Shown piece after piece: positions 11,121 through 38,950 of a DNA stretch of 64,000 bases. This stretch comes from Anaerococcus hydrogenalis DSM 7454. GTDB lineage: Bacteria > Bacillota > Clostridia > Tissierellales > Peptoniphilaceae. The notes beneath the pieces are model-generated. The model saw only the letters and a program-made list of their open reading frames with translations, did no database searches and was not told the DNA's origin. The stretch spans positions 1 through 64,000 of the forward strand of contig NZ_ABXA01000003.1 in assembly GCF_000173355.1 (NCBI RefSeq), in the 5' to 3' direction. The stretch's first letter is position 1. Every line of letters starts with the position of its first letter. A program made the position numbers and the translations under genes.

Positions 11121-11144
11121 ATGTACCTCCCTCTTTTTGTCTCA

Positions 11145-11334: not shown

Positions 11335-11343
11335 AAGTCCCTC

Positions 11344-14488: not shown

Positions 14489-14511
14489 ACTTTCCTCCTT
14501 AATTTAAGGTA

Positions 14512-15395: not shown

Positions 15396-15396
15396 C

Positions 15397-16047: not shown

Positions 16048-16149
16048 TCTCATCCTCTCATGTATCAACTTTGAAATCTATTAAAAAATTTAGTTATATA
16101 GCAATCTTCTATAAGTAAATTAAAACTATATACAAATAATCACACTTAT

Positions 16150-20255: not shown

Positions 20256-20305
20256 AATGACATCTCCTTTCTTTGATATCCCTTTTAGATATAAATTTAA
20301 TTTGT

Positions 20306-20360
20306 TGATAATAACTATCATTGTATTTTTATTATACATCGGTTATAATTACTAATACAA
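20306..20360. promoter_or_regulatory. Overlapping divergent promoters with a Fur-like box
   Basis: TGATAATAACTATCA (20306-20320) matches the Fur 7-1-7 inverted repeat TGATAAT-N-ATTATCA with one mismatch. Plus-strand promoter for the AraC gene: TTGTAT (20321-20326), 17 bp, TATAAT (20344-20349). Minus-strand promoter for the ABC pair: TTGTAT (20355-20360), 18 bp, TATAAT (20331-20336). The box touches the plus-strand -35 and the minus-strand initial transcribed region, so one repressor could close both. Confidence 0.7.
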
Positions 20361-20415
20361 TAGTTTTGAATTAATAAGGCTAATTGGAATATTGTCTAAA
20401 AGGGATAGGTGTATT

Positions 20416-21408
20416 ATGACTTATTTTGATTTTGTAAAAGATTATATGAAAGTAGATGAATGTAAGAATAATAAGAAGTATTCAAGTGCAGGCCATACTT
20501 TTTGTTGGAAAAAAGAGGACTCTACTTATGGAGAAGGCCTATATTGGTTTTATGAAGGAGACGTCTTCATTATCGATGTACATGATTTTTATATCAGAAA
20601 GGAAGTAGTTCAAAATAACACTTATAGTATGGCAGACTATGTTTCAATTTATTCAAGCTACATTGTCAGCGCAAATGGAGAAAAGTTTAGTCCTTATCAA
20701 ACTTTGACCGCAAACTCCTTATGCACTCTTGATTTTGATAATATAAAAGATGACTTCCTATTTCTATTACACGAGAATTCATATTATCTTTGTGTTTCTA
20801 TTGGATTTAAAAGAGAACTTTTGGAAAAGCAACTATCATCCATTAATATTGATCCAGAATCATTTTATGAGGCTTTGCTTGAGACTAATCAAATAATACT
20901 TACAAAGTCTTTAGAAAAAGTAGCAATGGAAATATTAAATTGTAAGATGGACCCTCCTGCTGCGGATTTTTTCTTTAAAGCTAAGGCAAATGAATGGGTA
21001 AGTATAGTAATTGATACCTACTTAAATAGAAAGAAATATAAAATTGAGTCAGACGATAATAAAGCACTTGAAGATGTAGCAAGATTCTTAGATGATCATT
21101 TCGCCATGAATGTAAATCAAGAAACCCTTGAAAAAATATCTAAAATGAGCGGAACAAAATTAAAAAATTTGTTCAAAGAAAAATATGGTCAAAGCATTAC
21201 AGAATACACCCAAAGAAAAAGAATGAATGTGGCTGAAACTCTTCTCTTAAATACTGAACTTCCTATAAAAGAAATAGCTGAGTCTGTCGGATACACATCA
21301 CATAGCAAATTTTCCATTTATTACAAAAGATACAAGGGAAAACTCCCAAGTGAGGTTCGTAATTTAGCTTGCAAACGTCATAATTTAAAATGCGATTATT
21401 GTGATTAA
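20416..21408 (+). CDS. AraC-family transcriptional regulator
   Basis: 330 residues from ATG 20416 (a TTG at 20392 would add eight residues; AGGT lies 6 nt before the ATG). The N-terminal ~200 residues form a ligand-binding region without a clear motif. The C-terminal ~100 residues hold two helix-turn-helix units: LEKISKMSGTKLKNLFKEKY and IKEIAESVGYTSHSKFSIYY, the latter being the AraC signature. It is divergently transcribed from the two ABC half-transporters. YbtA-type regulators with this layout activate siderophore-uptake genes when the chelate is present; that role is inferred. The extreme C-terminus has three cysteines (CKRHNLKCDYC), which is unusual and could bind a metal. Confidence 0.9.
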   Translation: MTYFDFVKDYMKVDECKNNKKYSSAGHTFCWKKEDSTYGEGLYWFYEGDVFIIDVHDFYIRKEVVQNNTYSMADYVSIYSSYIVSANGEKFSPYQTLTANSLCTLDFDNIKDDFLFLLHENSYYLCVSIGFKRELLEKQLSSINIDPESFYEALLETNQIILTKSLEKVAMEILNCKMDPPAADFFFKAKANEWVSIVIDTYLNRKKYKIESDDNKALEDVARFLDDHFAMNVNQETLEKISKMSGTKLKNLFKEKYGQSITEYTQRKRMNVAETLLLNTELPIKEIAESVGYTSHSKFSIYYKRYKGKLPSEVRNLACKRHNLKCDYCD

Positions 21409-21496
21409 ACTAATTTTTATATTTATACACCTTTATCTTATATGAGTTTATAGATATTTGTATAGGTATATATAAATTTGGTAAAAAGCAAAAAAA

Positions 21497-21519
21497 GAGA
21501 CTAGCCTAATGCCAGTCTC
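21497..21519 (-). terminator. Terminator between the AraC gene and the ECF/ABC operon
   Basis: GAGACT pairs with AGTCTC around an 11-nt loop, with a run of seven T on the minus strand. It ends the long operon that begins with the TetR gene. Confidence 0.8.
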
Positions 21520-21535
21520 GATATCTATAGTTCTA

Positions 21536-23272
21536 TCAATTATTTAATTTCCATGATTCCGCCTTAGCTTTTGCATTGATAAGGTCAGAATAAAGTCCAT
21601 TATTTTTAATCAGTTCTTCATGATTTCCACATTCTACTATTTCTCCATCTTTTAAGACTAAAATCTGGTCAGCATTTCTAATTGTCTTTAGTCTGTGGGC
21701 AATCATAATTACTGTTTTGTCTTTTGTTAATGATTCTATTGCTTCTTTAAGTTTATCTTCATTTTCTGGGTCTATATTTGCTGTGGCTTCATCAAATATA
21801 ATTATGTCTGCGTCTTTTAGCATGGCTCTGGCTATGGAGATTCTTTGTTTTTCTCCGCCTGATAGACTTGCTCCACCTTCTCCGATGATAGTGTCATATC
21901 CTTCTGGTAAAGCTTCTATAAATTCATGACATCTTGCTTTTTTAGCAGCTTGAACTACTTCTTCATGGCTTGCGTTTTGTTTTCCAAATTTTATATTATT
22001 TTCAATTGTATCTTCAAATAGATATACATCTTGAAATACCATGGAAATAGAATTCATTAAGTTTTCTATCTTATAGCCCTTAATATTCTTTCCTCCAATT
22101 AAAATTTCTCCAGAGTTTACATCCCAAAATCTCGCTATGAGATTACAAAATGTTGTCTTACCAGATCCAGATGGACCAACTATGGCAGTCATGGTATTTT
22201 CTTTTATCTCTGTTGATACATTTTTTAAAATTGGTCTGTCATCATAAGAAAAGCTGACATTTTTAAAGACTATATTGTGATTTTTTATAGGCTCTATAAT
22301 ACTTCCTTCTTTCATATCAGGCATAGAGTCGATAAAACCTACAGAATCTATAGCATTTTCGCAAGCTCTTAGGATTGCCATGTTTGATCCTGCCCCGATT
22401 AAGCCTTCAAAGATAATAAAGGATGCCATAATCATAAGAATTGTTTCAGCAAGTGGAAGTTCACCAGATAAATTTAATTTTAATGATACATAGACCATAG
22501 CCACTGTTGTTATTCCCATTACAATTCTTTGGATAACTGTGTATGGTGCTACAGATTTCTCCAGGTCTAAGAGTATTCTTGATGTGTCTTTTATAGACTT
22601 TCTTAAAGCCCTGTTATTTTCTCCACCAAGATTATAGGATTTTATAACCTGCATTCCTTGTAAAGTTGCTAATACTTCTTTTGTAAGTCTTGTTTGTGTT
22701 TCTGTCATTTTGTCTGCATTAGCTGATGATTTTTTCTCCATCATTGATGTAACGATGAAAAATACTACCACACCTGCTACAGCAACCAGTCCTACCTTTA
22801 CGTTAAAAATTAAAGTTCCAAGGACAAAGACTAAAGTATTTAAAACTCCACCAAGTACAAGAACCAAAAGCATAGGCACCCACATTTCTGCTTGGGAAAG
22901 TGAAGATGTGGCAATTGTAGTTAATCTTCCAAGTGAAAAGCTTGAAAAGAAACCCATAGGAACTCTTTTAATTTTTTCTCCTATTTCTATTCTCTTATGG
23001 GCTGCCATAAAATATCCAGCGTGTGTTTGTGCCATTTGTGAAATTTTTAGTGTCATAATTTTGCCAACAAGAGATATTACTAATATGCCGAGACAAATAA
23101 AGATTGCCTTATAGTCTAAAGTTTTAGAGAATATATTTACTAGCATATAGTAAATTGCTCCAAACTCAAGGGCATTAAATACTGCGTGCAAAAATCCAGC
23201 GAGAATGGATTTCTTAATATTTACCTGTTCTTCTTTTGAAAAATTCCATATCTTTTTAAACACATTAAGCAT
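21536..23272 (-). CDS. ABC transporter half, exporter fold, second pair (last gene of the TetR operon)
   Basis: About 578 residues. Membrane domain with six helices in about 20-300; ATPase domain with Walker A GPSGSGKTT, LSGGEKQRISIARA signature, Walker B IIFDEATANIDPE and switch AHRL. The start at 23272 has AAGGGG 8 nt upstream and overlaps the upstream ABC gene by 8 bp, so the two are translationally coupled and probably heterodimeric. It is homologous to the AraC-linked pair. As the final gene of the TetR/ECF/MATE operon it shares the same predicted iron control. Confidence 0.87.
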   Translation of the reverse strand: MLNVFKKIWNFSKEEQVNIKKSILAGFLHAVFNALEFGAIYYMLVNIFSKTLDYKAIFICLGILVISLVGKIMTLKISQMAQTHAGYFMAAHKRIEIGEKIKRVPMGFFSSFSLGRLTTIATSSLSQAEMWVPMLLVLVLGGVLNTLVFVLGTLIFNVKVGLVAVAGVVVFFIVTSMMEKKSSANADKMTETQTRLTKEVLATLQGMQVIKSYNLGGENNRALRKSIKDTSRILLDLEKSVAPYTVIQRIVMGITTVAMVYVSLKLNLSGELPLAETILMIMASFIIFEGLIGAGSNMAILRACENAIDSVGFIDSMPDMKEGSIIEPIKNHNIVFKNVSFSYDDRPILKNVSTEIKENTMTAIVGPSGSGKTTFCNLIARFWDVNSGEILIGGKNIKGYKIENLMNSISMVFQDVYLFEDTIENNIKFGKQNASHEEVVQAAKKARCHEFIEALPEGYDTIIGEGGASLSGGEKQRISIARAMLKDADIIIFDEATANIDPENEDKLKEAIESLTKDKTVIMIAHRLKTIRNADQILVLKDGEIVECGNHEELIKNNGLYSDLINAKAKAESWKLNN

Positions 23273-24987
23273 TTTCATCACCCCTTAAATTTGCAGCATA
23301 CATTTCCTTATAAAGCTCTGATGACTTTAATAAGCCCTCATGAGTTCCATAGGAGTTTAATTTACCATCTTTTATAACAAATATCCTATCTGCATCAACA
23401 ATTGTCTTTAATCTATGAGCGATTATGATTAAAGTTTTACCCTTAACTAGATTTGCCAAGGCGTTTTGTATGAGAGCTTCATTTTCAGGATCTATATAAG
23501 AAGTTGCTTCATCTAAAATTACGATTGGTGCATTCTTTAGCATGGCACGAGCAATAGATATTCTTTGTCTTTCTCCTCCAGATAGATGACCTCCACCTTC
23601 ACCAACTCTTGTATCATAACCATTAGATAGATTCATAATAAAATCATGGCAGGCAGATTTTTTACATACATCTATAATTTCTTCGTCAGAGGTATTCTTA
23701 TTTCCAAGCCTAATATTTTCCTTTATAGTCATATCAAAGAGGAAATTGTCTTGGGATACAAAAGAAATAAGTGAAGACAAGTTTTCGAGCGACACATCTT
23801 TTGTTTCTACTCCGCCAATTTTAATAGATCCCTTATCTACATTCCAAAATCCAGCAATAAGTTTTGCTATTGTGGACTTGCCTGACCCAGAAGGACCAAC
23901 GAGGGCTGAAACATTAGATTCTTTTATTTCCATAGAAAGATTATCTATAACCTTATTTTTTCCATCATAAGAAAAGTCTACGTCTTGAAGTTCTATATTA
24001 TAGGATCCTATTTTTTCTCCCTTGTCAATATTTTCTAACTCTCTTGAGTCTAAAATCTTTCCTATTTCAGAAGTTATAGTTGATATTCTTGACATATCAT
24101 CCATATAGTTCATGATTTTTAAAATACTAGAAACTGTAGCAAATGATAAGACGATTAAGGTAATTAAATTTCCTAAATCAAGGCTTCCATTGATATAAAA
24201 TAAAATTCCAAAGGGTATGATTGTAAGTATCCCCATAGGAGAAAGTAACCTACCTATGGCAACCTTATTCATAGACTCGTCCATCCAAGAATAATAAAAT
24301 TTTGCATTGTCATAGACGGAATCAGTATATTTTTTATAAGATGATTCGCTTTGATTAAATGTCTTTATTACTTCTATCCCATTTATATACTCAACAATGG
24401 AATTATTCATATGTTGACCAATGGCAACTGACTTTCCAAACATTTCCTTATAATGAGCATTCATAACAGACATCATAATAGACATGCCAAGGACAAAAGG
24501 AACAAGAGAAAGTAGAGTCAATCTCCAATCCAAAGTAAACATATAGATAAATAATAGGATAGGCCCAACTAAATTTGCCGTAAATTCTGGCACTAGATGG
24601 GCAAGGGACGTTTCCATAGAATCCACCTGCTCAACTATAATATTTTTAAGTTCTCCAGATGATCTTGATAACACATCTCCCAGTGGCATTTTAAATAATT
24701 TTTTAGAAATATCATTTCTGATTTCTCCTAGTGCATTAAAAGTCGCCGTATGAGAAATACTTGTAGAAATTCCTGCTGCCACTTCTTTTATAACAAATGT
24801 TATTAAAATACTTATACAAAGTGGAGTATATAAACTCATATCACTTATGCCATTAATCAAATTTACAATGATTTTTGCCATGTATATATAGGAAAAAAAA
24901 ACCTGCCACCACTCCCACTATCGCAAGTAGGACGGATGCAAAATATGATCCTTTTCTTTTACTTACATATTCTTTTACTAAATTCAC
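23265..24987 (-). CDS. ABC transporter half, exporter fold, frameshifted near its start
   Basis: The long frame (from ATG 24881, 538 residues) has Walker A GPSGSGKST, LSGGERQRISIARA, Walker B VILDEATSYIDPE and AHRL but lacks the first membrane helix. Upstream, GTG at 24987 with AAAGGAGG before it begins MNLVKEYVSKRKGSYFASVL in another phase. Removing one base from the nine-A run at 24893-24901 joins them into a normal ~575-residue protein (AGFFSYIYMAKIIV). Several other genes in the window have similar homopolymer defects, so a sequence error is likeliest; true slippage or phase variation cannot be excluded. It pairs with the next ABC gene. Confidence 0.82.
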
Positions 24988-26389: not shown

Positions 26390-27838
26390 TTACGCAATCA
26401 GTCCATCTTTAATAAATTCCAAAATTTCTTTTTCATGTCCCTGGATATTTACTTTCTTGTATCCATTTTTTCCAAGCATTAACACAGAGTTACAAACCTT
26501 AAAAATAAGTTCTATATCATGAGTTATTATTGCAAAGGGATAAGTTTTTGAATATCTTTTTATTATTTGAGAAATGTCGTTCATCCTCTTATAATCTAAA
26601 CCTGATGTGGGTTCATCAAGAATTATTAACTTTCTACCACTTAAACAAGCTGTCAATAGGGCAAGTCTTTGTTTTTGCCCACCAGATAGATTTTGAGGGT
26701 GATCATACCTATTTTCCCAAAGGTCAATATGTTTTAATTCTTTTCTAAGTCTATCTAAATATCCATCGTCATTAATTCTATCTTTTTGTAAAAGCTCGTT
26801 TTCTACTGTATCAAAGAAAATCTGATAATCCACGTCCTGCATCATATAATAAGAGTTTTTTAACCTTTCTTTTTTATTTTTTCCATAACTTGTTTTCCCA
26901 TTATTTTTAATTAAGCCTGATAAAGTCTTTCCCAAAGTTGTTTTACCAATTCCATTTTGTCCAATAATTGCCATTATTTCTCCAGAATTGAGACTAAAGT
27001 AAAGATTTGTTATTAATTCATTATTACCTATTTTGATATTTAAGCCTGAGACCTCTAAGGCTTGTTCTTGAGGACAAACTAAATTTTCTGCTTTCAAAGA
27101 TTTATAATTAATTGCTCTTAGTCCATATTCTTTGCAAGCATCTTCTGTAAGCTCTCCACGTGAAAATATTCTCTCTATTGTTCCGTTTTTCATATAGATT
27201 AGCCTGTCATACAAGTCATTTAAAAAGAATAATCGATGTTCAGCTATAATAACAGTTTTTCCCATTTTTCTTAAATTAGAAATGATATCCTTAAACTGTA
27301 GAATCCCGTGATAATCTAAATTAGACGAAGGCTCATCAAAGAAAATAATTTTTGTATCATATAGTAACGTGGAAGCTATTGCTACTTTTTGTTTCTGACC
27401 TCCAGATAGTTCTGAAAGCTTCCTATCCATCAAGTCGCTAATTCCCATTTTTTCAAAAGTTTCTTTTGTTTTTAACTTCAATTTATCTAAGGGCATTCCT
27501 AAATTTTCACCAACAAAAGCAACTTCCTCATCGGCAATAGTTGCAAAAAACTGGTCTGATGGATTTTGAAAGACATTGCCTATATATTTTGCAAGTTCTC
27601 CTTTTCTATAATCCATCAGATTTTTATCTAATAGTTTCACTTCTCCATTTAAAATTCCATTATAATGATTTGGGATAAGCCCATTTAGAATTCTTGTCAA
27701 AGTTGTTTTACCACAACCCGATAAGCCTGTAATTACAACTAATTCACCCTCGTAAATTTCTAAATCAATATTTTCAAGAACGGAAGAATTGTCTTCATCA
27801 TATCGGAAATTCAAAATTTTAGCTTTTAATAAGCTCAT
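26390..27838 (-). CDS. ECF transporter fused double ATPase (EcfA-EcfA')
   Basis: 482 residues with two complete ABC domains in tandem. First: Walker A GLSGCGKTT, signature LSGGQKQKVAIA, Walker B IIFFDEPSSNLD, switch AEHR. Second: GQNGIGKTT, LSGGQKQRLALL, LIILDEPTSGLD, ITHD. Most ECF systems use two separate ATPases; here they are fused. The start at 27838 overlaps the EcfT stop (ATGA) and has GGAGG 8 nt upstream. With EcfT and the S component encoded just upstream, it forms a dedicated (group I) vitamin, metal or haem importer. Confidence 0.9.
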   Translation of the reverse strand: MSLLKAKILNFRYDEDNSSVLENIDLEIYEGELVVITGLSGCGKTTLTRILNGLIPNHYNGILNGEVKLLDKNLMDYRKGELAKYIGNVFQNPSDQFFATIADEEVAFVGENLGMPLDKLKLKTKETFEKMGISDLMDRKLSELSGGQKQKVAIASTLLYDTKIIFFDEPSSNLDYHGILQFKDIISNLRKMGKTVIIAEHRLFFLNDLYDRLIYMKNGTIERIFSRGELTEDACKEYGLRAINYKSLKAENLVCPQEQALEVSGLNIKIGNNELITNLYFSLNSGEIMAIIGQNGIGKTTLGKTLSGLIKNNGKTSYGKNKKERLKNSYYMMQDVDYQIFFDTVENELLQKDRINDDGYLDRLRKELKHIDLWENRYDHPQNLSGGQKQRLALLTACLSGRKLIILDEPTSGLDYKRMNDISQIIKRYSKTYPFAIITHDIELIFKVCNSVLMLGKNGYKKVNIQGHEKEILEFIKDGLIA

Positions 27839-28524
27839 CCTTCTAACCTCCATAATGCAAATACCATCAAAAAGGAAAATATGACAATATAATCTAAAAT
27901 ACCAAAATATATTGGATTATAACTTGTTTTTTCACCCTCATACTCAATACCTCTTGTTATTATAGAAGATGTTAATGTTTCGCTTACTTGAAGGCATTTA
28001 TAGATAAGTGGAATAAGATAAAATTCAAATGAACGCACAGGATGTAAGAGGCTTATTTTTAAGCCCCTCACCCTCATTCCATTGCGTATTTCTTTAATTC
28101 TAGATTCTAATTCTCCAAGATATCTTAATGCAGTTACAAGAGCTATACTTACCATTTGTGGAAAATGAACCTTTCTTAAAGCTGCCATTATTTTGAGAGG
28201 GCTAGTGAGGATCAATACCCTACCAATATTAAAAATTGGATATAATTTTAATACCAAGGCAATTAGACCTATTATTGCCCCAGTAGTTAATCCTAAGTCA
28301 ATATAAGATAAGATTTTTATTAACACATATAATCCTAAATAGATGCTCAACCTTTTGATAGCTTCTAAGTATGAAAATAACAAGACAACCACAAAGCTCA
28401 TTCCCAAAAGAACATAATAAGCTATTCCATTAACAAGAAAAACCAAGAAAGACGAAATCAATATTATCAAAAAAAGAGTGATTGGATTTATATCTTTTGT
28501 CTTACTTTTTCCAAAATTGTTCAC
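27835..28524 (-). CDS. ECF transporter transmembrane coupling protein (EcfT)
   Basis: 229 residues. Hydrophobic helices in about 15-115 and near the C-terminus, with the cytoplasmic coupling helix between them carrying the EcfT Arg-containing motif (ESRIKEIRNGMRVRG, about residues 135-150). EcfT binds the two ATPase domains and the S component. GTG start at 28524 overlaps the S-component stop (TAGTG). Confidence 0.88.
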   Translation of the reverse strand: MNNFGKSKTKDINPITLFLIILISSFLVFLVNGIAYYVLLGMSFVVVLLFSYLEAIKRLSIYLGLYVLIKILSYIDLGLTTGAIIGLIALVLKLYPIFNIGRVLILTSPLKIMAALRKVHFPQMVSIALVTALRYLGELESRIKEIRNGMRVRGLKISLLHPVRSFEFYLIPLIYKCLQVSETLTSSIITRGIEYEGEKTSYNPIYFGILDYIVIFSFLMVFALWRLEG

Positions 28525-30027: not shown

Positions 30028-30384
30028 ATGGATAATAGAAAAAGAAATAATCAATTAAAAATATATTTAACAGATGAAGAAAAAGAAATTTTTGAAAAGA
30101 AAATGAAACTTGCTAATTGCAAAACTATGTCCCACTTTCTTAGAAAATGTGTATTAGAAAAAGAAATTTATGTTGTAGATTTAGAACCATTTAGAAACTT
30201 ACAATGGCTACTTTCAAATGCAACAAATAATATAAACCAGATTGCAAAAGCTACTTATACAACTGGTGTTATTTACAAAAATGAAATCGAGTCAATGAAT
30301 AAACAGATAGAAAAATTATCAAAAGAAATATTGCAGATCCATTCCCTACTTCTTAACAAATCAAAAGAAAGTTCTGGTGATTAA
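30028..30384 (+). CDS. mobC: MobC-like relaxosome accessory protein
   Basis: 118 residues from ATG 30028 (AAGGAG 8 nt upstream; the longer frame to 29905 runs through oriT). The N-terminal ribbon-helix-helix-like part (NNQLKIYLTDEEKEIFEKKM) and the mid-section LQWLLSNATNNINQIAKATY are the MobC (Pfam) signature. It binds oriT and helps the relaxase nick. The relaxase gene starts 1 bp after its stop. Confidence 0.85.
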   Translation: MDNRKRNNQLKIYLTDEEKEIFEKKMKLANCKTMSHFLRKCVLEKEIYVVDLEPFRNLQWLLSNATNNINQIAKATYTTGVIYKNEIESMNKQIEKLSKEILQIHSLLLNKSKESSGD

Positions 30385-30385
30385 T

Positions 30386-31717
30386 ATGGCAATTACAAAA
30401 ATACATCCTATAAAATCAACTCTAAATTTAGCAATAGATTACATTACTAAGAGCGAAAAAACTGATGAAAAAGTCTTAGTATCTTCATTCAAATGTCATC
30501 CATCTACTGCCCATATTCAATTTATAAAAACTCGAAAAGATAATGATACTAAAGGAACAGTCTTAGCTAGACATTTAATTCAATCTTTTCTACCAGGAGA
30601 GGTTGATCCTATAAAAGCTCACGAAATTGGAATGGAATTATGTAAGAAAATTTTAAAAGAGGATTATGAATTTGTTCTTGCAACTCACATAGATAGAGGA
30701 CATATCCATAACCATATTATTTTTAATAATGTTAATTACAAGACTGGTAAGTGCTACCAATCTAACAAAAAAACTTACCATAAAATTAGGTATAAAAGTG
30801 ACGAATTATGTAAAGAAAATAAGCTTTCAGTCATTGATGAATATTATGAAGCTTACAAAAGAAAATATAAAACTTCTGGTAAATCCTGGTATGAATATGA
30901 CCAAAATAAAAAAGGAAATTCTTGGAAGTCTAAACTGCAATTTGATATAGATAGAATGATTAATAAGTCTAAATCGTGGGAAGAGTTTTTAGATAATATG
31001 AAGTCTCTTGATTATGAAATTAAATTTGGTAAACACATTGCTTTTCGTCATAAAGATAAGCAAAGATTTACAAGAGCTAAGACTATCGGAGAAGATTATA
31101 CTGAGGAAAAAATCAAAGAAAGAATAGATTTAGCTATTAAAAACAAAGCTAACCCTATTAAAAAACGTGTAGGAAACGTCATTGATATATCTACTAATGA
31201 AAAAGCTCAATCCTCAAAAGGTTATGAAGTTTGGGCAAGAAAACATAATATCAAAACAATGGCTGATTCAATAATTAAACTTAGAGAACAAGGAATTAAT
31301 TCAATCACTCAACTCGATGATCTAATCAAAAAATCTGCTGATGATAGACAAGACTTGTTAGATAAAATAAAGAAAATTGAACCTGAAATGAAGAGTTTAT
31401 CACAAGATATGGAAAATATAAATACTATAAATAAATATCGTGAAATCTATAAATACCACAAGAAAAATCCTGAAGATAAACAATTTGCTGAAGAATATTA
31501 TAGTGAACTTTCCGTCTATAAAATTGCCGCTAAAGAAATTTTAGAAAACTATAAAAAACTACCAAAAACAAAAGAAATATTAACGAAACTCGATGAATTG
31601 CAAGAAAAAAAGAATACCCTTATGCAAGAGTATTCTTTGAATAAAGAGCAATTTTCTGACCTTGTTCAGTATAGGAAAAACTATGAAAATTATTATGGAA
31701 AGGAAGTAGAGAGGTAA
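30386..31717 (+). CDS. MobA/VirD2-type relaxase (MOBP-like)
   Basis: About 443 residues. The N-terminal relaxase domain has a candidate catalytic tyrosine (AIDYIT, Y19) and the metal-binding histidine motif HIDRGHIHNH (101-110). The C-terminal half is charged and predicted coiled-coil. It nicks oriT and leads the strand into a recipient cell. The ATG at 30386 is chosen; a GTG at 30377 overlapping mobC is possible. No replication, coupling or integrase gene is nearby, so this is a remnant of a mobilizable element that would need a helper. Confidence 0.88.
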   Translation: MAITKIHPIKSTLNLAIDYITKSEKTDEKVLVSSFKCHPSTAHIQFIKTRKDNDTKGTVLARHLIQSFLPGEVDPIKAHEIGMELCKKILKEDYEFVLATHIDRGHIHNHIIFNNVNYKTGKCYQSNKKTYHKIRYKSDELCKENKLSVIDEYYEAYKRKYKTSGKSWYEYDQNKKGNSWKSKLQFDIDRMINKSKSWEEFLDNMKSLDYEIKFGKHIAFRHKDKQRFTRAKTIGEDYTEEKIKERIDLAIKNKANPIKKRVGNVIDISTNEKAQSSKGYEVWARKHNIKTMADSIIKLREQGINSITQLDDLIKKSADDRQDLLDKIKKIEPEMKSLSQDMENINTINKYREIYKYHKKNPEDKQFAEEYYSELSVYKIAAKEILENYKKLPKTKEILTKLDELQEKKNTLMQEYSLNKEQFSDLVQYRKNYENYYGKEVER

Positions 31718-31872: not shown

Positions 31873-32076
31873 ATGCCAAGAAAAAGACCAGAAACAAAAA
31901 GAAGCAAAATAGCAAAAATGTTAATTGAAGAATATGAGCCTCAAAGCGTACAAGATATTCAAGAAGCTCTAAAAGACCTTCTAGGCGATACAATGGAAGA
32001 ACTTTTAAAAGCAGAATTAGATGAGCATTTAGGCTATGAATATGGAAAAAAACACTATCCTAAATACAAGAAATAA
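31873..32076 (+). pseudogene. IS256-family transposase, N-terminal fragment
   Basis: 67 codons with CAGGAGGAA before the ATG. The frame shows the IS256 N-terminal pattern (VQDIQEALKDLLGDTMEELL, then AELDEHLGYEYG) and ends at a stop where the family would continue for over 300 residues with the DDE domain. The ATTCTGTGTATGG sequence upstream (near 31812-31824) may be part of the left inverted repeat. It is a truncated, inactive copy. Confidence 0.8.
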
Positions 32077-32436
32077 CAAAAAGCTGTTAAGTCATATCAC
32101 TAAGAACGGATCAAATATTGTCATAGTTATCCATATATTTTGAAGAGTGGTAACTTAGGAAAATAAATAGTAAGTTATCTTCAAATTATAAAAATTTTAC
32201 AGTTTATTAAAGTCATATAAAATTAAGTTAAGCTCTATTTAGATAGAAATTGACATCTATTGATACAATCAAGTAGAGGCTAATCTGTAGCCCCTAAAAT
32301 ACGCTACGCTTTAACTATTGGCAAATTCTTTTAATAAAATTAATTTAGCTTTTAGAAAGCAAGGAATCAATAGATTTTTATTGTACCAATACTTTACACA
32401 AGATGAATAACTTAGCAAAATATTTGCTTGGGCTTT
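32077..32436. other. Non-coding stretch after the IS256 fragment
   Basis: No open frame is supported. CTTTACACAAGATG near 32391-32404 could be the opposite IS256 end, which would imply a large internal deletion of the element. Otherwise only A/T-rich sequence without recognisable structure. Confidence 0.35.
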
Positions 32437-33120
32437 TTAGATAGACAATGTATTTATTGCCCTTTCTTTAGTTATTTTAAGATAACAAATAATCGCGTAT
32501 AATCCAATAACCATTAGTATTATCCATGTTCCTATCCAATTATATATTTTAAAATCATTAGGCACTATATACATGGTAAATATAGAACCTAAATACATAA
32601 TAACAGATATAAACTGAATAGTTTTAGCATAAGCCAGACTAGCACACCACATTGCATAACAATTTATCACTGAATAAAATATCTGAAATATTGTAGAGAT
32701 TACTAATACCTCCATTAAAGGAACTATAGAAAATATTTCTATATTGAACATTACAATACCAACAATGAAAGAAATAACATAGAATATAATTGATACTATT
32801 ATACTCATTAGTATTGGCAAAATTATCTTTCCTAGTATTATTAAGTTTATGCTTGCTGGTAAGCTAAATAAAACTTCTAACATACCCATATTTTTTTCAT
32901 ACCAGAATCTTAAATTTGAAATGTATATAATATATCCAATGATTGCTGTCATATATGTTATGTTATTTTTATAAATTTGAGGTGAAAAATGTGATGCTTT
33001 TGATTTTACATATAGTAATAAGAATATAAACAGAATCGTACCAACTGTCATTACAAATTTTGATTTAATATTTTTTTGTAAACTCCTAAGTTCTTTCCAA
33101 AAAATAGCTTTTACTACCAT
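32437..33120 (-). CDS. ABC-2-type transporter permease
   Basis: 227 residues with about six membrane helices after a cytoplasmic start (KAIFWKELRSLQKNIKSKF). The conserved position FWYEKNMGMLEVLFSLPAS is the coupling region of ABC-2 permeases. GAGG precedes the ATG, 3 bp after the ATPase gene. It is the last gene of a unit led by a SPASM-domain remnant, which suggests export of, or immunity to, a modified peptide; this is inference. Confidence 0.78.
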   Translation of the reverse strand: MVVKAIFWKELRSLQKNIKSKFVMTVGTILFIFLLLYVKSKASHFSPQIYKNNITYMTAIIGYIIYISNLRFWYEKNMGMLEVLFSLPASINLIILGKIILPILMSIIVSIIFYVISFIVGIVMFNIEIFSIVPLMEVLVISTIFQIFYSVINCYAMWCASLAYAKTIQFISVIMYLGSIFTMYIVPNDFKIYNWIGTWIILMVIGLYAIICYLKITKERAINTLSI

Positions 33121-33123
33121 TTA

Positions 33124-34032
33124 TTACCTCACTTTTTCAAAATATAAATCTTCTAATTTTTTCTCTATGCGGTTTATTTCATGAATATTAATATTATATT
33201 TATTAATAATGCAAGATATAATATTGTTCTCAACATTGCTTATTTTGTTATCAAATTCAATAAACAATATGTTCTTTTCCAATTCTGCTTTCAAAACGCC
33301 CTCAATATTATCTAAGTTTTTAATTACATTTATATCAAAATTACTATTATCACAAACCACTTTAAGCTTTATAATACTATCCACATTAATACCTTTAACA
33401 TCTCCAAAATATTTTAAATTCTGATTTAAAATTATGACCTTGTCACAGATATTTTCAATAAGAGATAGATTATGGCTACTTATTATTATTAAAGATTTAG
33501 AACTTAATTTTATTAAAACATTATTTAGTTTTCTCTGATTTTCTAAATCAAGCCAATTCATTGGTTCATCCATTATAATTATAGGAGAACAAGTAATTAT
33601 AGATCTGATTAAAGCTACTTTTTTTTTCATGCCTTTAGATAAATTCTTCGTTTCATTATCTAATTCCTTATGAATATCGAATAGCATAGATAAATGTTCA
33701 ATTTTTTTATCACTATCTTTAATGCTATAGCATCTAGCAATAAATTCTAAATTCTCTTTTACTGTTAAATCTTCATAAAGGTTATCTCCGTCTGAGCAAT
33801 AGCTAATTTTTTTTCCTATCTCACAGCTATCTAACTTTCTTCCCCATAATCTTACTTCACCATCGGTTGGCTCTATCAGACCCATAATAATCCTAAATAA
33901 TGTAGTTTTGCCAGCGCCATTTGGTCCTACAATGCCAATAATTTCATTTTTATCTAAACTTAGATTAATATCATCTAAGGCTAATTTAGCATTATATTTT
34001 TTTGAAATATGCTTTAAACTTAATATGCCCAT
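33124..34032 (-). CDS. ABC transporter ATP-binding protein (CcmA-like)
   Basis: 302 residues. Walker A GPNGAGKTT (37-45), Walker B IIIMDEPMNWLD, switch SSHN. The signature is NLSKGMKKK rather than LSGGQ, common in ABC-2-linked ATPases. At the Q-loop position the sequence reads SYCSDGDNLYEDLT with no clear glutamine, which is unusual. The ~85-residue C-terminal extension is typical of drug or bacteriocin exporters. GGAGG lies 5 nt upstream; it overlaps the SPASM remnant by 13 bp. Confidence 0.88.
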   Translation of the reverse strand: MGILSLKHISKKYNAKLALDDINLSLDKNEIIGIVGPNGAGKTTLFRIIMGLIEPTDGEVRLWGRKLDSCEIGKKISYCSDGDNLYEDLTVKENLEFIARCYSIKDSDKKIEHLSMLFDIHKELDNETKNLSKGMKKKVALIRSIITCSPIIIMDEPMNWLDLENQRKLNNVLIKLSSKSLIIISSHNLSLIENICDKVIILNQNLKYFGDVKGINVDSIIKLKVVCDNSNFDINVIKNLDNIEGVLKAELEKNILFIEFDNKISNVENNIISCIINKYNINIHEINRIEKKLEDLYFEKVR

Positions 34033-34250
34033 ACTAACCTCCTAACACAACTTATCTTTTCATCTATCGTTGATCCTAACTTCATTTCCATACTTCTGCA
34101 ATCATTACAAGCGTACCTAAGTCCACAATCTCGATATTTATTGATTTTACTATTATTCAAATTCCGGAATTTCAACAAATTTTTTTCAGTAAATATTTTA
34201 TTAATATTTAAATAATTACCTCCATATGAAAAATCTAAAAGAGCAACCAT
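34020..34250 (-). pseudogene. Remnant of a radical-SAM peptide maturase (SPASM end)
   Basis: 76 codons. The segment INKYRDCGLRYACNDCRSME, followed by ISC, has the cysteine layout of the C-terminal SPASM domain of radical-SAM peptide maturases (usual form: I..CkdCefRyaC.DCR). The preceding DFSYGGNYLN resembles the usual linker. The CxxxCxxC radical-SAM core and N-terminal leader-binding part are missing, and no ribosome-binding site precedes the first ATG. It sits upstream of and overlaps an ABC exporter, as in RiPP operons. No precursor peptide was found. I read it as the surviving end of a lost RiPP locus. Confidence 0.6.
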
Positions 34251-34306
34251 TTACTTAATTAGAATAGCTTTATATTCTTCTTATAGGATACAATACTTTT
34301 ATTTAT

Positions 34307-34329
34307 TTTACATGAGTAAAAACTGCAAA
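34307..34329 (-). promoter_or_regulatory. Putative LuxR-regulator operator upstream of the SPASM-ABC unit
   Basis: The palindrome TTTAC-N4-GTAAA (34307-34320) with adjoining AACTGCAAA matches 38200-38222 at 21 of 22 positions. Both copies precede an ABC operon next to a NarL/LuxR two-component system, so this is a candidate response-regulator site. Confidence 0.65.
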
Positions 34330-34335
34330 GTTCAC

Positions 34336-34370
34336 AAAAAAAATTGGAGATAGAATATTCTAATCTCCAA
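34336..34370 (-). terminator. Intrinsic terminator after the NarL/LuxR regulator
   Basis: TTGGAGAT pairs with ATCTCCAA (34344-34370), followed on the minus strand by a run of eight T. It ends the five-gene ABC/kinase/regulator operon. Confidence 0.92.
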
Positions 34371-34390
34371 ATATTTTTAATCAATAAATT

Positions 34391-34987
34391 TTACATGACT
34401 GGATTGATATATCCAAGTTCCATAGCCTTATTATAGGCTTCAACAATATTTTTAGCCCTTAATTTATCGTATATATTTGCTATATGGTTATAAAGGGTTC
34501 TCTCGCTAATAAAAAGCTTAGCCGCAATATCTTTTTTGCTTGACCCCTTTATTAATTCTTCAAGTACTTCTATCTCTCGTTTAGTCAGTGGATCAGCAAT
34601 GTACTTATCTATTTTCTTGAATTTTCCTTTATATACATTTTTTATTCTTTCTAAAAGTTCTTCAATTTCTATAGACTTATTAATAAAATCCTTTACTCCT
34701 AAGTCAAAAGCCATATCCTTGTAATTATCTAAATCATAGGAGGTTAAGACTATTATCTTTTGTTTTGGATTATCATTTACCAAGTCTTTAATTAAATCAA
34801 GACCTGTCTTATCATCTTTTAAATTTATGTCAATTAAGAAAATATCATAAGCTTCTTCTTTTATCATTTTTAAAAACTTTTGAGCATCAGATACATAAGA
34901 ACATGAGATATAATCTGCTTGCTCTTCTAAAAGCATCTTTATAGACTGACCAAAAATTTTATGGTCATCAAGCAAAATAATTTTCAT
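34391..34987 (-). CDS. NarL/LuxR-family response regulator
   Basis: 198 residues. The receiver domain has D7/D8, phospho-acceptor D53 (IFLIDINLKDD) and a lysine near NKSIE. The C-terminal LuxR helix-turn-helix is clear (LTKREIEVLEELIKGSSKKD, then FISERTLYNHIANIYDKL). It overlaps its kinase gene by 20 bp. Its likely targets are the two ABC operons carrying TTTAC-N4-GTAAA sites, including its own. Confidence 0.92.
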   Translation of the reverse strand: MKIILLDDHKIFGQSIKMLLEEQADYISCSYVSDAQKFLKMIKEEAYDIFLIDINLKDDKTGLDLIKDLVNDNPKQKIIVLTSYDLDNYKDMAFDLGVKDFINKSIEIEELLERIKNVYKGKFKKIDKYIADPLTKREIEVLEELIKGSSKKDIAAKLFISERTLYNHIANIYDKLRAKNIVEAYNKAMELGYINPVM

Positions 34988-36125
34988 TTCTATCCACCTC
35001 CAAGGAAACTTTAGTTGAAAGTATTCCCTTGTTTAATCCGTAAGAAATATTTCCTGAATTTGAATCTATTAAAAGATTAAGAAGCAATACTCCTCTTTTT
35101 GATTCCTTAATTTTATTAAAATCATCTAAGCTTGCTCCATCACTATCCATTTCTATAACTATAAGACTTTCCTTCCTATATAATTTATAGTTTAAATAAG
35201 ACGCATCTGAGTGCTTATAAACATTATTTATAAGTTCTTTTGATATTATTGAAATCAACCTAATTAATCTTTTATCTTCTGTTAGATCACTATCTATATA
35301 TTTGGTAACTTCAATATTTTTATCTGGATATAGTGAACTTACATTATCAAATATAGCTAAGAGCGATGTTTCCAAATTTGCTTTTTCAAATAAAGAAGAT
35401 TGATAGAATTTCATTATATTTCGTGCTTTTTTCTCAAGTTCCCTTAGAATGTTTTTAGTATATTCTATATCAGGATTTTTTGAAGACAGATAATTTTTAC
35501 TTGCAAATATGTCTTGGATAATATCATCATGGATAATTCTTGCAAATTCATCTCTTTCGCTCGCCATATAATCTGACAGGTAATAGAGTTTGAAAGTTTT
35601 ATCATATGCTAATTCTTTTTCCTTTAAAAATAGAATAAATAAGAACTCTGTAATAAGGAAAATTATCTGGATAAATATATTTATCATTACCGTTCCTATA
35701 TCAAATAAATAAATCACTGCAAAAATAAAAAATACAAGTCCAATAGTAAATATTTGTGTAGATTTTCTAGATATTGGCAAGATGTTTATATATTTTATAT
35801 TCTCCAATACCAGGTATTTTTTTATAAATAGGCTTGTCGAAATTATGCTTATAAGGGCGAATAGAAACTTATAAGGTAAAGCATTTATTAAAATCAAGCT
35901 TAGTGGCAAAAGTGATGTGAGTATAGCTAAAATAGAAAATTTTCCTGATATCTTTTTATTTGAAATTTCTGTGTATATAAGTCCATATAAAGTAAAAAAT
36001 AAAATAAGTGAAACTGCATTTAAAATCGGGCCCTCTTTTATTAACATATTGTTTTTAAAAAGAAGACCCCAAAATAAAATTATCATTAAATGGCTGATTA
36101 AAATTTTTTCTAATTTCTTATACAT
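34968..36125 (-). CDS. Sensor histidine kinase, HisKA_3 (NarX/LiaS-like)
   Basis: 385 residues. About five or six membrane helices fill residues 8-165 with no large extracellular loop, so the signal is probably sensed within the membrane. The HisKA_3 H-box is ERDEFARIIHDDIIQDIF with phospho-acceptor H199. The C-terminal HATPase_c part is short (ISKELINNVYKHSD as N-box; the G-box, ESKRGVLLLNLLIDSN, is atypical and lacks the usual GxGLxG). It is cotranscribed with the ABC genes upstream and its regulator downstream. Confidence 0.88.
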   Translation of the reverse strand: MYKKLEKILISHLMIILFWGLLFKNNMLIKEGPILNAVSLILFFTLYGLIYTEISNKKISGKFSILAILTSLLPLSLILINALPYKFLFALISIISTSLFIKKYLVLENIKYINILPISRKSTQIFTIGLVFFIFAVIYLFDIGTVMINIFIQIIFLITEFLFILFLKEKELAYDKTFKLYYLSDYMASERDEFARIIHDDIIQDIFASKNYLSSKNPDIEYTKNILRELEKKARNIMKFYQSSLFEKANLETSLLAIFDNVSSLYPDKNIEVTKYIDSDLTEDKRLIRLISIISKELINNVYKHSDASYLNYKLYRKESLIVIEMDSDGASLDDFNKIKESKRGVLLLNLLIDSNSGNISYGLNKGILSTKVSLEVDRNENYFA

Positions 36126-36127
36126 AT

Positions 36128-36766
36128 CTAATAGTAGCTAACTACAATCCTTTCTTTATTAGTATTTATACCCAAAATTATAATTACTGATCCTAAAATC
36201 AAAAGCTTAGTTATCAAGTAGCCAGGCAAGGAATTTGTAAAATTATATACTAGGTAAGAACTTATCAAGACTACTAAGGATAGTCCTATCAAACGAATTT
36301 GGAGAGAATTTACTTTATTCATGTTTCTAGTATTAAGAATTACAAAAACTATTATTAGAGTGTAAAGAAAACTTGATGTAATTAAGTTTATACCAATGGT
36401 TAAGCTTAGATCAAGTTTAACTAGGTTTAATATAAAGCTTGGAAGGACTATAATTAATGTCGCTAAATAGATACTAAACAAATATTTAATTAGAATTTCT
36501 TTAATAGAAAGTCCATTTGCAAGTAAAAATTCAAGCTTTTTACTAATCTTATCTGATACCAAGGTATTTTTAGCGATTTCTACTCCAAACATTACAAAAA
36601 GTATTAAAATCCCATCAATTTTAACTATATTCATGACCTTATTTATTTCTTGACTTCCTACATCAGCAAAAAACAAAGCCATAAAGGAGCAGATTAGTGC
36701 CATAAGAGACATTAATAAGGCATTTTTGTCTAAAAGTTTTCTTAAATCGTTAATGACTAACTTCAT
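36128..36766 (-). CDS. ABC transporter permease subunit (second membrane protein)
   Basis: About 212 residues with six predicted membrane helices. Conserved feature: SKKLEFLLANGLSIKEILIK, paralogous to NKRIEFILASGINIKDVIKA in the preceding gene. The start at 36766 overlaps the preceding stop (ATGA), with AAGGG 8 nt upstream. With that paralogue it likely forms the membrane channel for the operon's ATPase. The substrate is unknown. Confidence 0.8.
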   Translation of the reverse strand: MKLVINDLRKLLDKNALLMSLMALICSFMALFFADVGSQEINKVMNIVKIDGILILFVMFGVEIAKNTLVSDKISKKLEFLLANGLSIKEILIKYLFSIYLATLIIVLPSFILNLVKLDLSLTIGINLITSSFLYTLIIVFVILNTRNMNKVNSLQIRLIGLSLVVLISSYLVYNFTNSLPGYLITKLLILGSVIIILGINTNKERIVVSYY

Positions 36767-37476
36767 GACCATGACCCTTCTTTATTAATTACAGATTCAT
36801 TATTCATTTTAGACAAATCTTTCATAGAAAATATTGCAAATATTAATCCTAATCCTATATTTATTCCTAGAATGATATAAATAAGGTTTAAATTATATCT
36901 TTCTATCAATAAGAGAATCTTCTCTGAAAATGTGCCTATCATGTAAATTAGAATTGTAGTTCCAAAGAAAACTATATTTTTGAAAAACTTAAAGTTTTTT
37001 TGGGATAAAGATATAAGGTTAAAAAATAGGATTTCAAAATATGTCATTCCTATCATTGTAACAAATATGCCTACAATCCACTTAAATTCAATCTTATAGT
37101 CATAGAGGACATAAGATAGGAAAAATAATAAAAATGGAATTATAGAAGATAGTCTCCACATTTCTATTGCATAGGCTTTAATCACATCTTTTATATTAAT
37201 TCCTGATGCTAGGATAAATTCAATACGTTTATTTAGTTTATCCTTGACTGTTAAATTTACAACCATAGAATTAGACATAATCAGTGAAATGCCAAGCATT
37301 AGCACGTATAGCATCAATACAATATAATCATTTCCTCTTGAATTAAACATCCCCTTATATAGTAAAAAAATAAAGCCAAGGGAAATCAAGGTAAATAATA
37401 ATAAATTCAAAATAAAATCTTTATCTTTAGTTAAATAATAGCGACAAGCCCTATTAATATTCATCTTATCATTCAT
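36763..37476 (-). CDS. ABC transporter permease subunit (first membrane protein)
   Basis: 237 residues with six predicted membrane helices; shares the LEF-type coupling segment (NKRIEFILASGINIKDVIKA) with its neighbour. The start overlaps the ATPase stop (AAAATGA). The operon order ATPase-permease-permease-kinase-regulator is typical of self-regulated exporters for antimicrobial compounds, but nothing specifies the ligand. Confidence 0.8.
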   Translation of the reverse strand: MNDKMNINRACRYYLTKDKDFILNLLLFTLISLGFIFLLYKGMFNSRGNDYIVLMLYVLMLGISLIMSNSMVVNLTVKDKLNKRIEFILASGINIKDVIKAYAIEMWRLSSIIPFLLFFLSYVLYDYKIEFKWIVGIFVTMIGMTYFEILFFNLISLSQKNFKFFKNIVFFGTTILIYMIGTFSEKILLLIERYNLNLIYIILGINIGLGLIFAIFSMKDLSKMNNESVINKEGSWS

Positions 37477-38135
37477 TTTGTACCTTCCTCTATAAATAAA
37501 TCTTCTAAGCTCTCTCCCTTAATTTCTCCTATATTTTTCGTAAAAAGTAAGACTCCTGATTTTATCATAGATACTTTATCGGCTACTTTTTCAATTTCAG
37601 AAAGATCATGACTTGTAATTACTATTGTTTTACCCTCATCTTTTAGAAGCTTAATAAGCTTTCTTATCTCGACCCTTGATATTGGATCTACTCCACTTGT
37701 TACTTCATCTAAAAATATTATCTCCCTATTCATCATTACAATAATTAACAAAGATAATTTTCTCTTCATACCCTTAGAATATGTCGAAACATTTCTACCA
37801 AGATCATTTGTAATTTCTAACAAGTCAGAATATTTTTGATAATTATCTAGACCATATCCAAAATACAAACCGTATAATTTAATATTTTCAAGTCCAGTCT
37901 TATCTTCATACAAGTAGTCATTTTCAAGTAACATCGCATGATTTCCCTTAATCTTAACTTCGCCACCATCTTCTTCATAAAGACCAGTAAGTATCCTAAG
38001 CAAAGAAGTCTTGCCGGAACCATTTGGTCCAACTATTGCATGGACCGTATTTGCTTCAATCTCTAAGGAAAAATTATTAAAAAGCTTCTTGTTTTTAAAA
38101 TTTTTACTCATGTTTTTTACTTCGATTACATTCAT
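37473..38135 (-). CDS. ABC transporter ATP-binding protein
   Basis: 220 residues from ATG 38135 (AGGAGG 8 nt upstream). Walker A GPNGSGKTS, signature TYSKGMKRKLSLL, Walker B IIFLDEVTSGVDP and switch TSHD. First gene of the five-gene operon under the TTTAC-N4-GTAAA element. The signature variant SKGMK is shared with the ATPase at 33124-34032. Confidence 0.9.
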   Translation of the reverse strand: MNVIEVKNMSKNFKNKKLFNNFSLEIEANTVHAIVGPNGSGKTSLLRILTGLYEEDGGEVKIKGNHAMLLENDYLYEDKTGLENIKLYGLYFGYGLDNYQKYSDLLEITNDLGRNVSTYSKGMKRKLSLLIIVMMNREIIFLDEVTSGVDPISRVEIRKLIKLLKDEGKTIVITSHDLSEIEKVADKVSMIKSGVLLFTKNIGEIKGESLEDLFIEEGTK

Positions 38136-38199
38136 ATATAAACCTCCTATCAATAATTCTAATTTTCTTATATTTATATTTTAAAGAATCTTAGACTTA

Positions 38200-38222
38200 T
38201 TTACATGAGTAAATACTGCAAA
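38200..38222 (-). promoter_or_regulatory. Putative LuxR-regulator operator upstream of the ABC/TCS operon
   Basis: TTTAC-N4-GTAAA at 38200-38213 plus adjoining TACTGCAAA, nearly identical to 34307-34329. It lies about 65 bp upstream of the first gene; TAAAAT about 16 bp downstream of it is a possible -10. Confidence 0.65.
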
Positions 38223-38238
38223 TTTAACAAAGAATAAA

Positions 38239-38256
38239 GGCAGTCCGAAGACTGCC
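38239..38256 (-). terminator. Very stable UUCG-loop hairpin
   Basis: GGCAGTC pairs perfectly with GACTGCC; on the minus strand the loop is the C(UUCG)G tetraloop, followed by TTTATTCTTT. It would stop transcription from the IS relic before the ABC operon. Confidence 0.75.
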
Positions 38257-38429
38257 GATATTTATCTATCTGCACCTTTGTTATGTCTTTCCTATTTGAC
38301 TTAGCTTTGTCATCTGTCTTAATTCTTTCTATTTGCCATAATATAGACTTTTTATTTTTATCTTGACTTTTTGCTTTTAAGAGCTTAGAAGACAAATACG
38401 AACATTCTTATGTTCCTTCCCATTGTTAT

Positions 38430-38950
38430 CAACGCTTGTTTTATGTAACTTTTCTTAGTTACCTATTGAAGTTTTCCATTGCATTTGTTGTATATATTAG
38501 TTTTCATACTCCTTCTGGATATTTAAAATATTTGGATAATTCTGCCCAGTTGTTTTTCCAAGAGTTTACACACATTGGGTAATTTTTACCCCATTTTTCT
38601 TCAAAGATTCCTAGATTTGTTAAGTCTAAGTCTTCTGTTGGTGGCTTGTATACTGATTTAAGGTATTTCATTAATTCTTTTATATCTCTGTATGACACAT
38701 ATTTAGTTGAGTTTCTTATTTGATGGATTATGTATTTTTGTATTTCTGCTTTTGGATATACTGCTTCTATTGCTTGGTTAAATCCTGGTAGATTGTCTGT
38801 TGAGAAAATTAATACATCTTCTAACCCTCTTTCTTTTAGTCCATTTAATACTAAAATCCAATATTTGCTTAATCTATTTTCTCCTACCCGTGGTATTACT
38901 AGATTTTTCTTTTCATTAACATTATAATTTTCTATTTCATTTAATACATA
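38430..38950 (-). pseudogene. IS256-family transposase relic, central/C-terminal part
   Basis: The minus strand encodes GENRLSKYWILVLNGLKERG, VLIFSTDNLPGFNQAIEAVY, HQIRNSTKYVSYRDIKELMK and NNWAELSKYFKYPEGV, all IS256 DDE-domain blocks. In-frame stops interrupt it after PEGV and within NR*LRKVT*NK. The N-terminal third is missing. It is oriented opposite to the IS256 fragment at 31873-32076. A weak frame continuing to about 38201 (KLLKAKSQDKNKKSILWQIE) is not recognisably part of it. Confidence 0.82.

Follow-up and report, generated by a model that had tools for sequence, protein, structure and literature searches.

A conserved promoter element with fixed −10 spacing accompanies an ABC transporter and two-component module in Anaerococcus hydrogenalis and its relatives

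Gene content of the locus

The window analysed here is the whole stretch of 64,000 nt of Anaerococcus hydrogenalis DSM 7454, part of a 108-kb contig in a genome that is 84% complete. It contains two copies of a short repeated element, here called elements 1 and 2, and a module of ATP-binding cassette (ABC) transporter and two-component genes. In the list of open reading frames (ORFs), the module genes all lie on the minus strand, in the order ATP1, permA, permB, kinase and regulator, followed by a SPASM remnant, ATP2 and perm2:

38204..38222 (-): element 1, TTTGCAGTATTTACTCATG, where an activator of the ABC-kinase-regulator operon is predicted to bind
38178..38183 (-): −10 box TAAAAT, 20 nt after element 1
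37473..38135 (-): ATP1, ABC ATPase; top NCBIfam model TIGR03740 (lantibiotic protection), below cut-off
36763..37476 (-): permA, hydrophobic ABC permease-like protein (ORF list and hydropathy)
36128..36772 (-): permB, hydrophobic ABC permease-like protein (ORF list and hydropathy)
34968..36125 (-): sensor histidine kinase; hydrophobic N-terminal half, no long hydrophilic stretch between membrane segments
34391..34987 (-): NarL/LuxR-type response regulator, Pfam domains Response_reg and GerE
34344..34370 (-): hairpin TTGGAGAT...ATCTCCAA with T-run, between the regulator gene and element 2 (sequence reading; alignable in four loci)
34311..34329 (-): element 2, TTTGCAGTTTTTACTCATG, where an activator of the SPASM-remnant/ABC unit is predicted to bind
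34285..34290 (-): −10-like box TATCCT, 20 nt after element 2
34020..34250 (-): 76-aa remnant of a SPASM-domain peptide maturase; TIGR04193, E 4.9e-6, positions 269-313 of 342, below cut-off
33124..34032 (-): ATP2, ABC ATPase (Pfam/NCBIfam search)
32437..33120 (-): perm2, permease-like partner of ATP2 (ORF list and hydropathy)

The regulator contains both domains of the NarL/LuxR type, with scores well above the cut-offs (PF00072, 75.3 bits against 30.2; PF00196, 69.3 against 23.5), and a genome search places its closest relatives in Anaerococcus, Peptoniphilus, Urinicoccus and an Ezakiella metagenome-assembled genome (MAG). The kinase shows weak similarity to MctS, LiaS and UhpB in NCBIfam, every score being below cut-off, and neither permA nor permB matches a Pfam or NCBIfam model at E 0.001. 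All five genes from ATP1 to the regulator are intact. Their ratios of nonsynonymous to synonymous substitution rates (dN/dS), 0.04-0.40 against five relatives, indicate purifying selection, which argues for a function kept without biosynthetic genes. The operon that starts at element 1 closes with the kinase and regulator genes. An earlier reading of this DNA, made from the sequence only, had two ABC operons bracketing the regulator and kinase; there is, however, no separate regulator operon between the elements, as one operon ends in its own regulator and element 2 comes after the regulator gene.

The repeated element and its conservation

The element, TTTACATGAGTAAA[A/T]ACTGCAAA, occupies 34307-34329 and 38200-38222, and its copies differ at one position. 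The sequence-only reading had described a 22-nt repeat at 34307 and 38200 with one mismatch: both copies are confirmed, with a corrected length of 23 nt. It had also proposed a genome scan, in which many occurrences at unrelated sites would have spoken against a regulatory role. With one free position and up to three mismatches, the 23-mer occurs at two sites only in 1,889,366 genome bases, and a reversed-pattern control gave 0. The 14-mer TTTACNNNNGTAAA is found in the window, as an exact match, at the two element positions only. When one mismatch is allowed, it is at chance level (8 occurrences versus 6.6 expected; 40 of 100 shuffles reach 8), and therefore it is the extended element that holds the information.

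To define the conserved part, a pattern was drawn from upstream regions of related operons at nine loci. These share the 19-nt unit TTTGCAGNNNTTACTCATG on the transcribed strand (minus in the window), with halves TTTGCAG and TTACTCATG, barring single-base changes in loci L044 and L046. Among the nine are loci of Atopobacter and Hutsoniella (Lactobacillales), with regulator identities of 56% and 54%, respectively. A scan of 130 Peptoniphilaceae genomes with at most one mismatch yielded 37 sites in 29 genomes from 10 of the 39 genera, and the reversed control yielded 0 in 130. Module genes adjoin 29 of the 37 sites; four sites are inside ORFs elsewhere and four have no module gene in the nearby ORF listing. 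Among the 15 regulator-bearing genomes that were unused for the pattern, 11 have the site upstream of transporter-kinase-regulator genes, and a twelfth (G044) has it with two mismatches. Thus, the proposal that one site is common to the two ABC units and tied to the adjacent NarL/LuxR-type system gains support, the site being conserved with such regulators in other genomes. Beyond the family genomes, the pattern matches six stretches of viral contigs, and a regulator homologue is present in 10 plasmid records, of which A. prevotii pAPRE01 is 86% identical and the other nine are below 60%.

Four further sites in L048, L050 and L052 brought the collection to 41. After removal of the four in-ORF matches (L099, L110, L121, L128) and of two duplicates over 50 nt (L116, L120:11395), 35 distinct sites were left; the two-mismatch site of G044 and the element 2 of G048, which has a one-base deletion, are outside this set. 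The inverted repeat TTTAC-N4-GTAAA, which the sequence-only reading took for the response-regulator site, is retained in 6 of the 35 distinct promoter sites, so that this dyad is incidental and is ruled out as the recognition unit. A shorter dyad, AGT-N4-ACT, is found in 31 of the 35; the conserved unit contains at most a short dyad.

Several smaller observations concern the element and what follows it. A two-mismatch copy of the pattern at 26518-26536 (-) falls inside ORF 26390-27853 and is probably due to chance. In genus g36 (L113, L115, L116, L118, L122, L123, L124), an ORF for a membrane-like peptide of 49-53 aa lies between the element and ATP1, at about 2544-2706 in element-forward orientation. 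A membrane-like peptide ORF is still present behind the element in G120 and G121, where the ABC and two-component genes are gone. Behind the isolated element of G110 (L114:2839-3222, element-forward) are two ORFs, one for a Cys-containing peptide of 57 aa and a small one that is membrane-like, and a family regulator search found no close regulator homologue in this genome.

Promoter architecture

In 34 of the 35 distinct sites, the element is followed by a TAnnnT hexamer whose start is exactly 20 nt downstream. The next best offset has a count of 11, and the largest TAnnnT count at any offset in 2000 shuffles was 10. The lone exception is L114, a locus without module genes, and none of the four dropped in-ORF matches has the hexamer. 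Since the −10 box played no part in the pattern search, its spacing is independent evidence. By contrast, the −35 hexamer is largely lacking: with a 17-nt spacer, four or more matches to TTGACA are found in 3 of the 35 sites. If the −10 box is set at −12 to −7, the element spans approximately −51 to −33, with its centre near −42, where a −35 hexamer would be. Class II activators bind in this way, over the −35 region and at a constant distance from the −10 box, and the predicted promoters conform to this layout. In addition, 29 of the 35 sites have AA at a distance of 2 to 3 nt ahead of the element.

An element acting at the RNA level is disfavoured because the conserved −10 box is downstream of it, so that the element would not be transcribed from this promoter. 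A generic sigma-70 pattern scan of 32300-38500 returned 41 promoter-like sites versus 46.6 expected. A terminator-like hairpin upstream of element 1 (38239..38256, minus strand) is one of two that a terminator scan found in the stretch, with 1.1 expected from shuffles.

Association with the two-component system

A close regulator homologue, defined as a best match of at least 163 bits, is present in 26 of the 130 family genomes. Regulator and site co-occur strongly: 21 genomes have both, 5 the regulator only, 8 the site only and 96 neither (Fisher P 2e-13). Of the regulator-only genomes, G018 has the regulator at a contig edge and G044 has the two-mismatch site (L131). In the other three (G009, G013, G017), the kinase-regulator pair is behind RNA polymerase genes. 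The recognition helix in these three homologues, which have no site nearby, reads YHH, not YNH. In contrast, the helix ISxRT[LI]YNH has YNH in 25 of 25 aligned regulators from site-bearing loci; the alignment left out L032, the L031 paralogue and the regulators of L098, L118 and L135, which are partial or broken, and L106, L107 and L131 were aligned without their first residues. The latter three loci have the element before a different ABC exporter, followed by kinase and regulator. The exporter swap indicates that the element tracks the two-component system and not ATP1-permA-permB.

Relation to sactipeptide-type clusters

Four related loci have a fuller operon, in the order element, 41-aa peptide, AlbA-like radical SAM enzyme, ATP1, permA, permB, kinase, regulator. 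These are L101 (same contig as L044 of Anaerococcus sp. 9403502), L103 (A. prevotii plasmid pAPRE01), L120 (P. timonensis, L045) and L048 (a MAG). The peptide gene encodes five cysteines in all four, and the maturase is a 453-aa radical SAM/SPASM protein, whose gene has a 4-nt overlap with ATP1 and is served by the same promoter. The maturase of P. timonensis contains CNVKCLHC and later cysteines, matches PF04055 at E 2.4e-17 and scores just below the cut-off of a SPASM model; its best NCBIfam match is AlbA NF012164 (E 1.1e-27, 96.5 against a cut-off of 850). With a Cys-rich precursor and a radical SAM/SPASM maturase bearing CxxxCxxC, these four loci have the predicted gene content of sactipeptide clusters. 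AlbA-like proteins are found in 4 of the 130 family genomes, one of them truncated. At L108 the maturase is truncated, whereas L102 and L112 have no maturase and a broken peptide.

The window copy has neither a precursor gene nor a radical SAM maturase, and a search of its genome found no AlbA-like gene at E 1e-20. Its homology to L045 breaks at 38189 and resumes at 38149, leaving 40 nt in the window versus 1.7 kb in L045. The short leader resembles those of L100, L126 and L127, so that the immunity-only form is a shared one and need not be a fresh deletion. The window thus probably carries the immunity and sensing part of a sactipeptide cluster.

Other peptide genes are also found near copies of the module. 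In Atopobacter sp. AH10 (L050:188-3399), the C-terminal part of a LanM and a C39-peptidase ABC exporter are upstream of the same ABC-kinase-regulator operon. In Anaerococcus sp. Marseille-P3915 (L098:2501-11642), the element and an ATP1 fragment are followed by an IS256 transposase gene, by genes for a daptide-type M50 protease, a ThiF protein and an ABC transporter and, at the end, by a regulator fragment.

Element 2 and its surroundings

Element 2 together with the preceding hairpin, which the terminator scan did not report, can be aligned in four loci: the window, pAPRE01, G048 (where the one-base deletion is inside the core) and L048. Each locus has a cargo of its own downstream: the SPASM remnant and ABC genes, a gene in decay, a protein of 220 aa whose start is signal-like, and a membrane-like protein of 59 aa. 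Element 2, behind the regulator gene, is predicted to act as a conserved exit promoter. A direct tie of element 2 to SPASM biology is unsupported, the other three loci having unrelated cargo at this position. The match of the remnant to TIGR04193 covers 45 residues at 26.2 bits against a full-length cut-off of 175, and a search of the 129 other family genomes at E 0.001 detected no homologue. The perm2 gene was found in its own genome only, out of 130 genomes of the family and 391 of the class, and a plasmid search gave no match to ATP2 (threshold E 1e-30) or to the remnant (E 0.1). Because ATP2 is preceded by a ribosome-binding site (AGGAGG) and none is apparent before the ATG of the remnant, the element 2 promoter probably serves ATP2-perm2.

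The surroundings of the module are mobile in character. A relaxase gene (30377..31717, plus strand, PF03432) and the preceding mobilisation gene match DNA near the module in L045 and L043, at 95% and 92% DNA identity, respectively, and the A. prevotii copy of the module is on a plasmid typed as conjugative (pAPRE01). Fragments of Mutator-type transposases flank the module at 31873-32076 and 38504-38698. Elsewhere in the window, 8015-16068 (-) encodes two tandem ABC pairs of the large-permease type (ATPase of 226 aa, permeases of 813 and 826 aa), followed by a kinase and an OmpR-like regulator; from the ORF reading, this may be a second peptide-antibiotic defence-like locus. At 16745-24881, two ABC half-exporter pairs flank a gene for an AraC-type-looking regulator at 20392-21408 (+).

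Proposed circuit and alternatives

We consider it probable that the element is the site of the regulator encoded at 34391-34987, in a self-activating two-component circuit that derives from a sactipeptide immunity module and controls, by way of class II promoters, a LanFEG-like transporter and a further transporter unit. In this circuit, the membrane kinase would detect a ligand, leading to phosphorylation of the regulator. The phosphorylated regulator would bind TTTGCAGNNNTTACTCATG at approximately −42, substitute for the missing −35 contact and recruit RNA polymerase to the −10 box 20 nt downstream. Element 1 would drive ATP1-permA-permB-kinase-regulator, and element 2 the adjacent unit of SPASM remnant, ATP2 and perm2. 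Autoregulation is common among such two-component systems. It is likely here because kinase and regulator close the operon behind element 1, which would make a positive autoregulatory loop. Immunity to, or export of, an envelope-active peptide is a plausible role of the transporters, because related loci have peptide-maturation genes in the same operon. The operon would then correspond to one half of a sactipeptide-type bacteriocin cluster, the half for immunity and sensing, and, without the precursor and AlbA-like maturase genes, it probably serves as an induced defence against a neighbour's peptide.

A number of points weigh against this interpretation. Regulator binding, activation, the ligand or inducer and the substrate are what we infer from sequence, and the co-occurrence of regulator and site is no proof of binding because the site sits in the regulator's own operon. 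Eight genomes have the site only: in G019, G054 and G127 it is inside an ORF, in G073 the operon is cut by a contig end, and G110, G120, G121 and G123 apparently hold decayed copies. The YNH/YHH contrast comes from three related genomes, and element 2 has a −10 box, TATCCT, that matches poorly. A further point is the leniency of the reversed control: with up to three mismatches the 19-nt pattern has 66 matches in the A. hydrogenalis genome versus 6 for the control; of these 66, the two elements are the only ones without mismatch, none has one mismatch and six have two. This leniency, together with the four sites that have no module gene in the ORF listing (L114, L120:2501, L123, L124), slightly lowers our confidence; the four matches inside ORFs (L099, L110, L121, L128) also count on this side. 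As for the sactipeptide assignment, the AlbA- and TIGR03740-type matches are below curated cut-offs, and the 41-aa peptide finds nothing convincing in Pfam, NCBIfam or PDB (two weak PDB matches to cysteines of R-spondin-1 have E above 1). Finally, at 84% completeness a distant bacteriocin locus in the genome could be missed.

The most substantial alternative concerns the role of the operon. It may be a general envelope-stress or antibiotic detoxification system, coupled to bacteriocin genes only secondarily in some strains, a possibility that we take seriously although we would not bet on it. Most operons indeed have no biosynthetic genes, as the scarcity of the AlbA-like maturase in the family shows, ATP1-permA-permB is replaced by other transporters at some loci, and the available text of PMC4239024 describes LanFEG immunity transporters that lack biosynthetic operons and have relaxed specificity. 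A primary link to peptide biosynthesis is favoured by the 4-nt overlap of the maturase gene with ATP1 and their common promoter in L101, L103, L120 and L048, and by the copies beside LanM/LanT-like genes (L050) or daptide-type protease and ThiF genes (L049/L098). The identity of the binding protein can also be questioned, because any site in the promoter of the operon would co-occur with the regulator gene. If the element were the site of another, chromosomal regulator, the two-component system would act elsewhere, and sites without a close regulator, as in G110, G120, G121 and G123, would be accounted for. This is unlikely, given that the A. hydrogenalis genome has no further site, that most sites in the 130 genomes are at module genes, that the element stays with kinase and regulator under a different transporter (L106, L107, L131) and that the three homologues with a changed recognition helix have no site nearby.

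A site that overlaps the −35 region can block polymerase as well, so that the regulator might repress, or act both ways, with the element as its operator. The general lack of a −35 hexamer and the constant distance to the −10 box fit an activator that stands in for the −35 contact, and we regard repression as improbable. Given the relaxase and the transposase fragments, the repeat could in principle be a scar of duplication or recombination devoid of a regulatory role. It is hard to reconcile such a scar with a fixed −10 spacing, with the alignment of element 2 and its hairpin in three other loci or with a core that persists at about 55% regulator identity, Lactobacillales included, while the flanks diverge; we disfavour this explanation strongly.

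On a more speculative note, the presence of the same hairpin and element before four different cargoes hints at a travelling, self-inducing bacteriocin-defence cassette, in which the 3′ exit promoter (hairpin plus element) would capture new cargo in each host, and the regulon would grow by promoter capture at the edge. Its parent would then code for an AlbA-type sactipeptide that has yet to be described, made by anaerobic cocci and autoinduced through a two-component system of its own. We put this scenario forward tentatively and rather doubt that it holds in full. If the proposed circuit is correct, the 19-nt site and its 20-nt spacing provide a sharp regulatory code for a bacteriocin-linked two-component system of anaerobic cocci. 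Across one bacterial family, the site locates peptide clusters that are fuller, copies stripped down to immunity and copies in decay, and ligand and regulon become directly testable with one reporter.

Comparison with known systems

The available text of Murphy et al. 2011 (PMC3132745) reports a thuricin CD-like cluster, Apre_1834-1840, on the A. prevotii plasmid pAPRE01, just upstream of the full AlbA-like/ABC/two-component operon. The two clusters are separate, and that text covers Apre_1834-1840, not the operon considered here. A 2014 survey of anaerobes (PMC4289311) lists Apre_1837 in its accessible part, which again belongs to the other cluster of this plasmid. The consulted portions of these two papers mention neither the site and its spacing rule nor the AlbA-type operon, and none of the titles and abstract openings listed by literature searches, with subscription journals mostly outside the scope, describes the operon.

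The fuller operons of the relatives resemble subtilosin/AlbA clusters in having an AlbA-like radical SAM/SPASM enzyme after a small Cys-rich peptide gene, with ABC genes next. They differ in that the AlbA score is below cut-off and a two-component system is part of the operon, and the window has neither maturase nor peptide. The alb operon of Bacillus subtilis is not known to include a two-component system. Apart from its maturase, the 41-aa peptide is itself presumed to resemble subtilosin.

The regulator shares its domain architecture with LiaR, CesR and VraR, VraR is among its solved relatives, and the kinase is weakly LiaS-like. According to the available text of PMC4447274, LiaR sites consist of an inverted repeat with a flanking A-stretch, beside which the AA before the element can be placed. 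The site is different from the lactococcal CesR motif TCAGHCTnnAGDCTGA given in the same text, and Pfam and NCBIfam identify no LiaF family in the operon, so that we do not assign the system to this subgroup. A further difference is that the operon described here encodes an ABC transporter.

LanFEG-type transporters often adjoin a two-component system. The module is similar to them in having one ATPase and two distinct permease genes, a likeness of gene order and hydrophobicity only, as no permease family was matched. TIGR03740 is the top-scoring model for ATP1, yet the score of 148.8 bits is below the cut-off of 309.75; the maturase of the closest loci is AlbA-like and not a lanthionine synthetase; and no immunity lipoprotein was noticed in the ORF list of the window, for which no dedicated search was made. 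The proposed role as an immunity transporter in a non-producer has precedents, since such transporters are already known to occur without biosynthetic genes, for instance the LanFEG-type CprABC of C. difficile (PMC4239024, available text).

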